54,677 bases of DNA from a bacterium (GTDB taxonomy: Bacteria; Patescibacteriota; Minisyncoccia; UBA6257; GWB1-50-10): NCBI GenBank assembly GCA_021824045.1, contig JAKALR010000003.1, positions 1 through 54,677 of the forward strand, given 5' to 3'. Shown one piece after another: positions 9,729 through 16,520 of this stretch. The notes under the pieces were generated by a model, which was not told the origin of the DNA, ran no database searches, and saw only the letters and a list, made by a program, of their open reading frames with translations. How positions within the stretch are numbered: position 1 is the first letter of the stretch; every line of letters starts with the position of its first letter. A program made the translations under genes and the position numbers.

Positions 9729-10840
9729 GGGTTAAGGGAACTTAAGTGTGTTTTCTCGGAGGAAATTTTTGTGTCGGTTTTGCTCTCGCAAGGTGCGAGA
9801 GGACAATCGACACAAGGATTTTCTTCTGCGAAACGTGGAGCCCGCGGTGCCGCCGCAAGGCCTCAGCGATCGTGGCATTCGGCCAGCCCTCCATGAGATT
9901 GGTCGTGTTCGGGCATCCCGGATGATCGAGGTAGGTGAAGAGGTTCGGGATGGCGCGACGCACGATATTCCGAATGCTCCGGAGCTTCCGGTACTGATAT
10001 CCTCCCGAATCCGTCTTCTTTTTGAAATACCATGCGTATTGTTTCTCCCAGATCTTGAAGAGCAGGATCCATTTTTCTTTTGCCTCGTGCGTCTTCACGG
10101 CTTTCAACCGATACATGAGATTGAGGATATCGTGTCCGGCCTCCTCCCTTGGATTCCGTGAGAGGTACTGGATCGCGAGTTTCACCATGTGGAAATGGCA
10201 CCGCTGGAAAGCGGTGCCTGGCCAGTACCGCGCAAGAAACCGCGCCACGCCTTTCTCCCCGTCGGCCACAACGACCTCGGGCGGTTTGAACCGGATGAGA
10301 AATCCATACCACGTGCCGGAGCATTCGTCCGTCGCAAAATCCCAGAAGAGGTCGTCATGCTCGTCGAGTGATAGGAGGGCGCAGAGCTCGCCGCCATGGA
10401 TGAACTTGGCATCCAGGATGAGTATCGTGGGCCGGTATCCCGATGGCGGCAGGCGCTTCGGATCCCCGCGAAAGAACGGTGCGAACTCCTTTGTGAGCGC
10501 TCGTCGCGAGAGGCCGTACTGTTTCGCGACGGCGTCCTTGCCATCTGGACCCGTGAGCCATGCGACAAGACGGTCGCGGTCATGTCGGAGGCGCGTGTCC
10601 GTGCGGTGAACCGTGCCTGATGTCCCGCACGCCATGCATCGAAACCGCTCCGTCCCGGCCCCCGTCCTCCCGTTCCGCCGCATTTTCCTCCCGCACGTCC
10701 CGCATATTTTGTTGTGCTTTTGCATGAAGTCAGACAACCCGATGTCTGGCTTTTGGTCAAGGCAAACGAAAGAGTTCGATACCATCGAGCTTTTTCGTTT
10801 GCCGACGTCGGAGAAAAACACACTTAAGTTCCCTTAACCC
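9729..10840 (-). mobile_element. 1112-bp insertion sequence, IS256 family (IS1249-like)
   Basis: Ends are perfect 26-bp inverted repeats (9729-9754 and 10815-10840) beginning GGGTTAAGGGAACTTAAG. The flanking 8 bases GAAAAATC occur at 9721-9728 and again at 10841-10848, an intact target-site duplication. One transposase gene fills the element. Intact repeats, intact target duplication and restored host frame on excision together indicate recent insertion. An 8-bp duplication suits the IS256 family. Confidence 0.92.
9742..10725 (-). CDS. IS256-family (IS1249-like) transposase
   Basis: 327 residues from the Met at 10725; a longer form could start at 10821 inside the right terminal repeat. N-terminal zinc-ribbon-like cysteines (CGTCGRKM...CMACGTSG) are followed by a mutator-type DDE domain: 'ILILDAKFI' (first Asp), 'VVVADGEKGVARFL' (second Asp), 'FQRCHFHMVK' (the C..H block), and 'TTNLMEGWPNATIAEALRRH' carrying the catalytic Glu. 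The TAA stop lies inside the left terminal repeat. It catalyses cut-and-paste movement of the element. The frame appears intact and potentially active. Confidence 0.9.
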   Translation of the reverse strand: MQKHNKICGTCGRKMRRNGRTGAGTERFRCMACGTSGTVHRTDTRLRHDRDRLVAWLTGPDGKDAVAKQYGLSRRALTKEFAPFFRGDPKRLPPSGYRPTILILDAKFIHGGELCALLSLDEHDDLFWDFATDECSGTWYGFLIRFKPPEVVVADGEKGVARFLARYWPGTAFQRCHFHMVKLAIQYLSRNPREEAGHDILNLMYRLKAVKTHEAKEKWILLFKIWEKQYAWYFKKKTDSGGYQYRKLRSIRNIVRRAIPNLFTYLDHPGCPNTTNLMEGWPNATIAEALRRHRGLHVSQKKILVSIVLSHLARAKPTQKFPPRKHT

Positions 10841-11248
10841 GAAAAATCTGGCGGCCACCGCATCAAGCGAGGGAAATGCTCCCCAACCCTCAGCCCATTC
10901 CGGAAGAGTGAGCGTCGGCAGGACCTTCTCGATGAATTCCGTGGCATAGCCGAGGGAGAGTTGGAAGATATCCGCGAGGATATCAATCTGCTTCTCGATG
11001 GGCTTGAGACCTTTGTACTCTGGAGGATACACGTAGCTGGAATGGACTTCTTCGTTCTTGTACTTTTCAGTGAAACGGTTTTCAGCTATGTGATCACTGA
11101 TGAGATTAGCCAAGCCGGGGGCGTTGTTGACGCGCTGCGCCTCGTCATCGGAGAGGCGAGCTTTGTTGTAAGCATCCTCAACGATGGAGACGAACTTGAG
11201 ACCCTTTGGGTCACGGGTGGTGACAGACGGAGCCAATGAAGTTTTCAT
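10841..11248 (-). pseudogene. 5' fragment of the conserved unknown gene split by the IS
   Basis: The start ATG at 11248 is preceded by AAAGGAG (11264-11258) at 9-base spacing. The fragment begins MKTSLAPSVTTRDPKGLKFV, contains 'ARLSDDEAQRVNNAPGLANL' and 'YVYPPEYKGLKPIEKQIDIL', and ends '...TLPEWAEGWGAFPSLDAVAA' followed by RFF at the IS edge. The reading frame then runs into IS sequence and stops. With the 3' fragment it makes one protein of about 302 residues of unknown function. It is divergent from the HTH gene to the right across a 28-bp palindrome. Confidence 0.85.
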
Positions 11249-11298
11249 CGGAGCCATCTCCTTTCTTTGGTTAGTTGGTGAATATAAAGTTGTTTGAG

Positions 11299-11326
11299 AA
11301 CATTCCTGAATATATTCAGGAATGTT
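11299..11326. promoter_or_regulatory. 28-bp perfect palindrome between divergent genes (operator candidate)
   Basis: AACATTCCTGAATA followed directly by its exact reverse complement. It lies 51 bp before the start of the disrupted gene and about 74 bp before the HTH gene. The HTH protein next to it is an obvious candidate binder, but nothing in the sequence proves it. Confidence 0.5.
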
Positions 11327-11399
11327 TAAACAATGCCACAATATGGCTAAAAAGTCAACCCATCCCAAAGCAACTGCCATAGGTGATATAATTGGAGGT

Positions 11400-12131
11400 A
11401 TGAATAGCAGATACGCTGCATTTAAAAATGATGCCGTGGCTTTGAGACGCAAAGGTTTCAGCTACAACGAAATAAACAAAAAGATCGGCGTGCCGAAAAG
11501 CACATTGAGCTCATGGTTAAAGTCCGTTCCCCTGAAACCCGAGCACAGGAAACGGCTGTATACCAAGCAAGTGCAAATTCTATCAAGGGGCTCCCAATCT
11601 CAGAAGGAAAGGAGACGCAGAGAAATTGATTCAATTGTAGAAGAGGCGATACGTGAGATTGAGTTGCCCCTATCAGGCCAAACATTCAAGCTTTTCGGCG
11701 CAGCCCTGTACTGGGCGGAAGGCAGCAAAACAAAAAGCTTCACGGTGACCAATTCAGATCCCCACCTTGTCGCATTTATGGTTAGCTGGTTCGAAAAAAT
11801 ATTCAATGTGTCGCCGAAAACAATGAAAGCATATCTCAACATATATGCTCAACAAAACGAAAAGCGTATAAAAAGATTTTGGTCGGATATTACCGGCATA
11901 CCAGTGGATAGATTCGGCAAAAGTTACATAAAGCCGTTAAGCACCGGGTACAAGAAAAATAATTTGTACTACGGGACCATAAAAGTCTTCGTCCCCAAAG
12001 GGACAGACATGAAACATCGCCTATTCGGATGGATACAAGCAACTTTACAAAGCACCAATCCCAAAGTAAAATTAGCACAGAAAAAGTGGGTTAGTCTAAC
12101 CAGCATCCAACGCCCACCGGTCAATTTATAA
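11400..12131 (+). CDS. HTH plus LAGLIDADG-like protein abutting tRNA-Lys
   Basis: 243 residues from ATG 11400, chosen because a TATAAT (11387-11392) sits 7 bases upstream; in-frame ATGs at 11343 and 11322 would lengthen it. An N-terminal helix-turn-helix ('RRKGFSYNEINKKIGVPKST', about residues 16-35) is followed by a basic linker and a domain with 'LFGAALYWAEGSKTKSFTVT', 'NSDPHLVAFMVSWFEKIF', 'RFWSDITGIPVDRF' and 'YYGTIKVFVPKG'. The 'LY..EG.K' block resembles the acidic motif of LAGLIDADG/WhiA-like folds. Its stop TAA is the three bases immediately before tRNA-Lys. A second family member sits at 15714-16403 in the same position relative to tRNA-Met. Nuclease or regulator is undecided. Confidence 0.75.
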   Translation: MNSRYAAFKNDAVALRRKGFSYNEINKKIGVPKSTLSSWLKSVPLKPEHRKRLYTKQVQILSRGSQSQKERRRREIDSIVEEAIREIELPLSGQTFKLFGAALYWAEGSKTKSFTVTNSDPHLVAFMVSWFEKIFNVSPKTMKAYLNIYAQQNEKRIKRFWSDITGIPVDRFGKSYIKPLSTGYKKNNLYYGTIKVFVPKGTDMKHRLFGWIQATLQSTNPKVKLAQKKWVSLTSIQRPPVNL

Positions 12132-12204
12132 CCACCCCTAACTCAACTGGTAGAGTAGCGGCCTCTTAAGCCGAATGTTCTGGGTTCGACTCCCAGGGGG
12201 TGGA
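12132..12204 (+). tRNA. tRNA-Lys (CTT)
   Basis: Acceptor CCACCCC/GGGGTGG, D-arm ACTC/GAGT, anticodon arm CGGC-CTCTTAA-GCCG (anticodon CTT) with a G-A mismatch closing the stem, T-arm CTGGG-TTCGACT-CCCAG, A73, no CCA. Position 1 follows directly on the stop codon of the HTH gene, so there is no room for its own promoter. It must be transcribed with that gene or from a promoter inside it. Confidence 0.93.
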
Positions 12205-12207
12205 CTA

Positions 12208-15647: not shown

Positions 15648-15649
15648 AG

Positions 15650-15723
15650 TGGCTGGGGTGAGACTCGAACTCACGACCTCGGCTTTATGAGGGCCACGCT
15701 CTAACCAGCTGAGCTACCCAGCC
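15650..15723 (-). tRNA. tRNA-Met (CAT), elongator type
   Basis: Minus strand: acceptor GGCTGGG/CCCAGCC, D-arm GCTC/GAGC, anticodon arm TGGCC-CTCATAA-AGCCG (anticodon CAT, with C31-A39 mismatch), T-arm GTGAG-TTCGAGT-CTCAC, A73, no CCA. Overall form resembles elongator Met; a lysidine-modified Ile2 tRNA cannot be excluded from sequence. Its bases U8-A9-G10 are the stop codon of the HTH gene just upstream. Confidence 0.9.
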
Positions 15724-16403
15724 TCACTAATCCTTTTTATTATCCCATAGTATAAACCCATAATTTTGTACTGTAAATCAGAGCTTTTTTTAACCCTTAT
15801 CGTGAGGGTTCCAAAATGTTCGTTCAGATTTTCATAAACTTTTTTACTTTTTGATTTGATGAATACTGTTTTATTAAATTGATTGACTCTGACTCCTGTT
15901 ACTCTTGACCAATATTTTTTTATAACCTCCGCACGGTTCCGATGGATTTGGTTCACAATAACGTTAAGGATGATATCCTTTTTGTTAATTTGAAAAATCT
16001 TTTCAAGCCAAAGAATAGCAAGTCTTACGATATCCGGGTTTGAGTTAGTAAACTGAAATTGATTTCCACTTTTATTTCCCTCCCCTAAATATAATCCCAA
16101 CCCAATAAAGAAAAGTGACTTATGGGTCACGGGACCGATTGTTTCAATTCCTAATTTTCGATATTTACTGATCTTTTCCTCTTTTATCAATTTATTCTTT
16201 TGAGCGCCTTTTAGTCTACCGACGTAGCCGCCTCTCACCATTTTCTCGTGGAGCTTTTTAATCTGTCGCGAGGTTAATTCAACATCATGGCACCAAATAC
16301 TCACCGAACTTTTGGAGACTTTTAATTTCTCCGCAATATCTTTAATACTTCCTCCCTTTCTTCTCAATCCCCGTGCGGCCAATTTTTTATTTGATTTCGC
16401 CAT
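15714..16403 (-). CDS. HTH plus LAGLIDADG-like protein running into tRNA-Met
   Basis: 229 residues from ATG 16403, which lies 27 bases after a TATAAT (16436-16431). N-terminal HTH 'LRRKGGSIKDIAEKLKVSKS' with 'SVSIWCHDV', a basic linker, then 'FFIGLGLYLGEGNKSGNQFQ', 'FTNSNPDIVRLAILWLEKIF', 'KKYWSRVTGVRVNQF' and 'HFGTLTIRVKK'. Each block has a counterpart in the protein at 11400-12131. The last codons GAG-GCT-GGG-TAG are read from the tRNA itself: the stop is tRNA bases 8-10. The paralogues share position and orientation relative to a tRNA, suggesting a targeted insertion habit. Function unproven. Confidence 0.75.
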   Translation of the reverse strand: MAKSNKKLAARGLRRKGGSIKDIAEKLKVSKSSVSIWCHDVELTSRQIKKLHEKMVRGGYVGRLKGAQKNKLIKEEKISKYRKLGIETIGPVTHKSLFFIGLGLYLGEGNKSGNQFQFTNSNPDIVRLAILWLEKIFQINKKDIILNVIVNQIHRNRAEVIKKYWSRVTGVRVNQFNKTVFIKSKSKKVYENLNEHFGTLTIRVKKSSDLQYKIMGLYYGIIKRISEAG

Positions 16404-16520
16404 AGAACCGACAATAACACTATCTGTATCATTATAGCATGGGTTCGATTCACATCCACTTCTCAAACATTAAGAGTGGGGACTTCACATTTCTGAAAAA
16501 TCGTGATAATCTGTAGTAAT

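Follow-up and report, generated by a model that had tools for sequence, protein, structure and literature searches.

A Patescibacterial protein family with a LAGLIDADG-like motif is encoded directly 5′ of tRNA genes and probably acts as free-standing homing endonucleases

Introduction

The closest described counterparts of the genes reported here are the free-standing endonucleases of bacteriophage T4. The genes for SegB, segG, segA, mobB, and others lie beside the gene they target, nearly always in its orientation; SegB is encoded between T4 tRNA genes, which it targets, and the coding regions of seg and mob endonucleases contain promoters for the genes that follow, an arrangement that favors retention (PMC2988022). 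The family described below, called the HTH family here for its N-terminal helix-turn-helix, is likewise free-standing and appears to embed promoters for what lies downstream. However, the T4 enzymes have GIY-YIG or HNH catalytic domains, belong to phage, and concern a single tRNA region, whereas the HTH family occurs in cellular genomes, is LAGLIDADG-like, has a separate clade for each tRNA isoacceptor, and is accompanied at some loci by half-tRNA remnants.

I-ShaI and the other LAGLIDADG endonucleases of CPR rRNA insertion sequences, which are single-domain proteins of the homodimer type, share the host phylum of the HTH family and attack conserved RNA genes, as that family would (PMC11270868). 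They reside, in contrast, inside rRNA insertion sequences; no free-standing position before a tRNA has been described for them, and the main text of the survey that reports them never mentions tRNA (PMC11270868). A third comparison is with intron-encoded endonuclease activity directed at the anticodon region of a single tRNA gene, the target proposed below for the HTH family, but that family is free-standing and needs no intron.

The searchable literature, which is thin on subscription journals, contains no report that we could find of bacterial endonuclease genes placed 5′ of tRNAs. Free-standing homing endonuclease genes (HEGs) are already known; in the papers searched we found no description of a family like this large one in Patescibacteria, which is devoted to the 5′ ends of tRNAs and has a clade for each isoacceptor.

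Results and Discussion

Two homologous genes adjoin tRNAs in the window

The window, by which we mean the whole 54,677-nucleotide stretch of DNA analyzed, comes from a genome of 612 kb whose nearest named relatives within the Lys clade of the family are Ca. Liptonbacteria and Ca. Jorgensenbacteria (Patescibacteria). Its features are collected in Table 1. At the Lys locus the reading frame is open from 11322, and ATG 11400 is the most likely start because homologue alignments begin there and because TGATATAAT and GGAGGT stand directly 5′ of it. The same element is found before the start codon of several relatives in the Lys clade and is probably the gene's own promoter. The initial annotation had the stop codon flush with the tRNA, and so it is, TAA occupying 12129-12131. 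It had also named a second example at tRNA-Met. The gene there does encode a homologous protein (33% identity, E 4e-30), in a frame open over 15714-16466(-) with a probable start at ATG 16403, but it overlaps its tRNA by 10 nt, and its stop codon is U8-A9-G10 of tRNA-Met. Close upstream of the Lys locus lies, at 9742-10821(-), the gene of a Mutator-family transposase (PF00872, at 25.5 bits and thus over the cut-off), adjoined by an ORF at 10760-11251(-) for which Pfam gave no match.

Table 1. Features of the Lys and Met loci in the window.
Feature	Coordinates	Strand	Basis or remark
Endonuclease-like gene, HTH and LAGLIDADG-like, Lys-CTT clade	11400..12131	+	Homologue alignment, clade, purifying selection in relatives
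tRNA-Lys(CTT)	12132..12205	+	ARAGORN; first base directly after TAA
TGATATAAT extended -10 (11384-11392) and GGAGGT directly 5′ of start codon; probable promoter	11384..11399	+	
AAAGCAACTGCCATAGGT, homologous to DNA upstream of the L006 gene (there a tRNA-Lys 5′ half)	11367..11384	+	
Embedded promoter-like TTTACA-17-TAAAAT in 3′ coding end	12044..12072	+	60-88 nt 5′ of tRNA-Lys
Second family member, Met/Asp clade	15714..16403	-	Stop TAG 15716-15714
tRNA-Met(CAT), elongator type	15649..15723	-	ARAGORN; 10 nt shared with endonuclease ORF
Embedded promoter-like TTTACA-17-TATACT in 3′ coding end	15749..15777	-	26-54 nt 5′ of tRNA-Met
Region 5′ of second gene: TATAAT flanked by inverted half-sites CGAACC ... 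GGTTC	16404..16461	-	

Members lie directly 5′ of tRNAs, one isoacceptor per clade

All five family members in the window genome lie immediately 5′ of a tRNA on the same strand, with ORF-to-tRNA offsets of 0 (Lys), -10 (Met), +7 (Ala), -10 (Arg-CCT), and -18 (Tyr). An ARAGORN reading of one of these tRNAs as tRNA-Pyl(CTA) was rejected; its anticodon call is shifted and, judged by other Arg(CCT) loci, the tRNA is Arg(CCT). When distances and orientations were tabulated for homologues in this and related genomes (about 100), 81 of 88 full-length members had a same-strand tRNA at their 3′ end, compared to 14 of 382 unrelated ORFs from the same tRNA-rich loci, which bears out the suggestion that the family is enriched in this position. 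Several seeming exceptions were resolved by counting tRNAs that group I introns divide. Two of the seven that remain are cut by contig ends. The other five are L036, L040, L049, L081, and L061:1811-2707(-), with those of L040, L049, and L081 found 3′ of tRNA-Met or tRNA-Glu instead. In a wider set, 108 of 117 members are 5′ of a tRNA, although Lys and Gln are over-represented there by a second scan seeded from the Lys clade, which was chosen because a pattern scan could not cope with the diversity of the large alignment. The last sample to be fetched, after the pattern had been stated, gave 15 of 15. Distant relatives in viral contigs (L235-L243) likewise adjoin tRNA genes.

Offsets cluster at -10 and -15; in such cases the stop codon comes from the tRNA sequence. 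Among 168 non-redundant ORF-tRNA pairs, 81 ORFs stop within the tRNA and 74 end between flush and +30. The earlier proposal that RNase P would leave an mRNA ending exactly in UAA therefore fits the flush cases only, since cleavage at a tRNA that contains the stop would leave the mRNA without one.

Mapped onto a FastTree phylogeny of 174 proteins, the adjoining tRNA changes identity 28 times for 25 labels, where the minimum is 24. Labels shuffled on the same tree average 113.7 changes, and none of 200 shuffles came as low as 28. Site specificity tracks protein lineage, as it does in free-standing HEGs. Lys-CTT (54 rows), Gln-TTG (23), Ile-TAT (15), Trp-CCA (9), Arg-CCT (8), Ala-GGC, Arg-TCT, and Val-GAC each form a clade to one side of a branch, so that the family is divided by anticodon and not merely by amino acid. 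Within the Lys clade, read by eye, members from one host family appear scattered and do not seem to follow it. The similarity of the proteins there correlates weakly with that of their tRNAs (Mantel r 0.26). We therefore reject the idea that the whole tRNA always moves with the gene; over long times, carriage of the tRNA is not what usually happens.

The protein has a LAGLIDADG-like motif after an N-terminal HTH

Family members have an N-terminal HTH, a long helix, and then a domain with the motif LYWxEGxK, which in the window protein reads LYWAEG. The pair Glu133-Gly134 (numbered from the opening of the ORF at 11322) is nearly invariant, being conserved in at least 90% of the family. Close pairs of members give dN/dS values of 0.05-0.22, indicating purifying selection.

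Profile and structural comparisons differ in what they recover. Pfam finds only weak HTH matches in the two window proteins; a Pfam scan of 74 members found HTH-type and similar families, and no LAGLIDADG family, among its 25 commonest matches; and NCBIfam and PHROGs, where matches were likewise weak and mostly to HTH proteins, give no LAGLIDADG family for either window protein. A profile built from the 74 members, when searched against PDB, matched I-DmoI with an E-value of 2e-4; in the alignment, the second LAGLIDADG motif of I-DmoI has its acidic residue opposite Glu133 of the window protein. The seven top matches of a profile of the domain alone were all I-DmoI, at E 0.004. This archaeal enzyme (PDB 2vs7 and others) is the best endonuclease match of the family profile, over the acidic motif and the strand and helix that follow it. 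It has, however, two motifs per chain and no HTH.

The AlphaFold2 models are confident (pLDDT 90 and 93). They predict a helix-strand-helix-strand-helix-strand-strand-helix order, the first helix of the domain (119-133) ending C-terminally in Glu133, an order compatible with the alpha-beta-beta-alpha-beta-beta-alpha core plus an extra helix. Foldseek against PDB placed no LAGLIDADG structure, I-DmoI included, among the best 50 matches of either the full model or the domain model; its top matches, to OmpA-like YfiB (TM 0.24-0.41, rmsd 6-8), were dismissed as not credible. In hhalign against the LAGLIDADG_3 profile, the motif region alone was aligned, with a probability of 6-9%. The label LAGLIDADG-like, as first applied, is thus fair for the motif, in which a helix of the LAGLIDADG type ends in a conserved acidic residue, but reaches further than Pfam or Foldseek will follow. 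We describe the family by this motif and by its apparent homing-endonuclease behavior, and regard its membership in the LAGLIDADG fold family as putative.

Occupied, decayed, and empty loci

Members are present in 50 of the 99 related genomes searched, the window genome included, and genomes of the same genus are without the gene at the Lys and Met loci; at tRNA-Lys(CTT) these include G001, G002, and G004. The divergent tRNAs of the Met locus are 72 bp apart in G001 and 797 bp apart in the window. In G003 and G037, remnants of the 3′ end of the gene persist before tRNA-Lys, and broken copies of family genes occur elsewhere among the relatives. At the Ile locus, occupied in G305 and empty in G386, the leader from TATAAT to the tRNA is alike at 17 of 19 nt; the insertion therefore joined just 5′ of the -10 box. 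The empty relatives so compared (Met, G001; Ile, G386) have an ordinary short leader between promoter and tRNA, as had been foreseen. Optional presence at a fixed site, with both empty alleles and decayed copies, is what characterizes a HEG.

Promoter-like sequences in the 3′ coding ends

The initial annotation inferred that tRNA-Lys has no private promoter, and here the family does not support it. Sigma-70-like promoter sequences (at least 8 bits) occur in the last 100 nt before the tRNA at 34% of loci, against 5-11% elsewhere in the same region and 8% in shuffled sequence. For ORFs that end flush with or enter the tRNA, the frequency is 26%, compared to 7.6% after synonymous-codon shuffling (p 2.5e-6). 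Those of both window genes are among the best scoring. The one at the Lys locus reaches 11.5 bits, a score attained in none of 40 codon shuffles, and its TTTACA and TAAAAT hexamers and their spacer can be recognized by eye in the decayed copy of L128 as well. These elements are matches to consensus and their activity is predicted. The accompanying proposal, that the family inserts itself between a tRNA and its promoter, is supported to the extent that members do sit before tRNAs and empty loci do have a short leader.

A recognized endonuclease family in the same position

Free-standing ORFs with the LAGLIDADG_3 domain (PF14528) occur in the relatives as well (L310, L316-L319, L322, L323, L325-L328, L331-L342), and 24 of 29 distinct loci are 5′ of a tRNA. 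They form a separate protein family, and all five that we checked against Pfam score above cut-off. Their tRNAs (Asp, Tyr, Leu, Cys, Gln-CTG, Ser-GCT, Phe) are mostly unlike the isoacceptors of the HTH family, yet the ORFs end at or inside the tRNA 5′ end with the same offsets, and some have 5′-half remnants. Of all the arguments for a homing-endonuclease life of the HTH family, the position that it shares with these endonucleases is the strongest.

A probable homing cycle and half-tRNA remnants

Patchy presence, decayed copies, purifying selection, and the motif aligned with I-DmoI all point to a HEG. In our preferred reading, which we consider probable, the window gene is a free-standing HEG whose product cuts near the anticodon arm and which is copied together with tRNA sequence. 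The protein, with its HTH, long helix, and single LAGLIDADG-like half-domain, would presumably act as a homodimer. The target of each clade would be a single tRNA gene, which for the window gene is tRNA-Lys(CTT), and the cut would probably fall within the anticodon arm, a natural pseudo-palindrome, or next to it. Repair of the break would copy in the gene and tRNA sequence, leaving a complete tRNA 3′ of the gene, while the old 5′ half of the tRNA would stay upstream and decay. A promoter evolved within the 3′ coding end, co-transcription from the promoter of the HEG, or both, would express the tRNA, and with its expression tied to the HEG, loss of the cassette would be costly.

Remnants of the kind such a cycle would leave are clear in about nine loci, a minority. 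The DNA upstream of L185 matches tRNA-Lys 1-27 at 27 of 27 nt; it is the same as the L011 allele and unlike the tRNA downstream of L185 itself. Upstream of L006, tRNA-Lys 2-32 is followed directly by the promoter of the gene. Other 5′ halves of the Lys type precede L035 (1-35), L168 (1-25), L165 (2-41), and L155 (10-30), while L211 has tRNA-Arg 1-27 and L005, in the window genome, has tRNA-Tyr 4-43 or 4-53. In the PF14528 family, such remnants are found at L331 (Gln 1-32) and at L335, L337, and L340 (Leu, ends 37-38). Scores of at least 14 were reached nine times by the own isoacceptor, never by shuffles, once by another isoacceptor, and three times on the minus strand. Matches on the minus strand and to 3′ halves include neighboring tRNAs interrupted by introns. 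At the other loci there was no excess of 5′-half remnants over shuffles, and downstream of the genes 3′ halves gave no convincing signal. The AAAGCAACTGCCATAGGT region of the window and its promoter are alike by eye to the corresponding DNA of L006 at 30 of 36 nt; although not significant by itself, it may, by homology to L006 only, be a decayed tRNA-Lys 5′ half. Remnants mostly start at tRNA position 1-4 and end at 25-41, in the anticodon arm. Cognate 5′ halves that end near the anticodon suggest that the cut falls in this arm and that the old tRNA gives way to the copy in the cassette.

A stronger version of the same cycle, which we entertain tentatively, is a cleave-and-rescue element: the endonuclease would destroy the resident essential tRNA gene at the anticodon arm and the cassette would supply a divergent tRNA of the same isoacceptor that is not cut, making loss impossible. 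Within the genus, tRNA-Lys(CTT) and elongator tRNA-Met diverge strongly between species (L096-L099 and L126-L129 against the window), while the adjacent tRNA-fMet is nearly identical between the same species. Under cleave-and-rescue, different clades would hold different tRNAs of one genome, and this divergence would be explained as well.

Other explanations

A homing endonuclease might instead target the junction of promoter and tRNA, with the upstream half-tRNAs being decayed tandem copies. The commonest 3′ boundary is tRNA position 1, and the G305 junction falls at the -10 box, with a leader common to the empty G386. Against such a target stand the same-isoacceptor 5′ halves with the boundaries described above, seen in two protein families, and the division of clades by anticodon (Lys-CTT; Arg-CCT, TCT, and GCG; Gln-TTG), for which a target at the 5′ end gives no need. 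We regard the junction as a rather unlikely target, yet one that keeps a share of the best explanation because the half-tRNA evidence comes from few loci.

That the protein is a transcriptional regulator, combining HTH and LAGLIDADG-like regions in the manner of WhiA and controlling its tRNA after losing nuclease activity, we consider improbable. The HTH domain, strong purifying selection, and fixed position at a tRNA would suit a regulator, as would the inverted half-sites around promoters of family genes. GTTCG/CGAAC is the word of the tRNA T loop, which the half-sites resemble. No other 5-mer is as enriched in the DNA before family genes, where it occurs in 57 loci against 15 expected; GTTCGA words are strongly enriched there too, and in 11 loci inverted half-sites form GAAC-N33-GTTC, possibly an autoregulatory operator. 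But this upstream DNA resembles the own isoacceptor no more than it does others (p 0.29), by which we rejected an operator that mimics the tRNA of its own locus. A palindrome at 11303-11330 was rejected as an operator because it is not conserved in the family. Against a regulator also stand the patchiness even within a genus, the broken copies and remnants, the nearly invariant acidic residue of the motif, and the recognized LAGLIDADG_3 endonucleases in the same niche.

Less probable still is collaborative homing, in which the endonuclease would open the anticodon loop mainly to spread ORF-less group I introns in tRNA. Such introns do interrupt the anticodon loop, near where remnants end, in 11 of 87 HEG-associated tRNAs, but they are also found in 9 of 141 other tRNAs of the same loci; the difference is not significant (Fisher p 0.15), so we rejected an enrichment, and most HEG tRNAs are intronless. 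The gene is itself outside the tRNA and not within a group I intron or intein, any introns being in the downstream tRNA. Chance or gene order in compact Patescibacterial genomes, which put many genes beside tRNAs, is refuted by the counts for members and for other ORFs of the same loci, by the offset peaks, and by the last sample.

Consequences and related observations

If the homing reading is correct, selfish endonucleases attack essential tRNA genes one after another across a bacterial phylum, with a specialized lineage for each isoacceptor. The family would then help to drive the unusual turnover of tRNA sequences in Patescibacteria. It would also offer a natural set of nucleases, the specificity of each being legible from its position, and may be nature's equivalent of the cleave-and-rescue drives that have been engineered. 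For annotation, family genes resemble those of orphan HTH proteins, and overlapped tRNA 5′ ends, or introns in those tRNAs, are easily missed. The anticodon-loop group I introns in the tRNAs downstream of L024, L025, L026, L031, L042, L044, L067, L086, L089, L090, and L093 were missed by ARAGORN run without its intron option.

Another type of gene takes the same position before a tRNA. In G382 and G384, relatives of G305 without the endonuclease, a small gene, RelE/ParE-like by eye, precedes tRNA-Ile(TAT). The one in G382 (L275:574-1110) ends 5 nt before the tRNA and has another small gene upstream of it; that of G384 is at L276.
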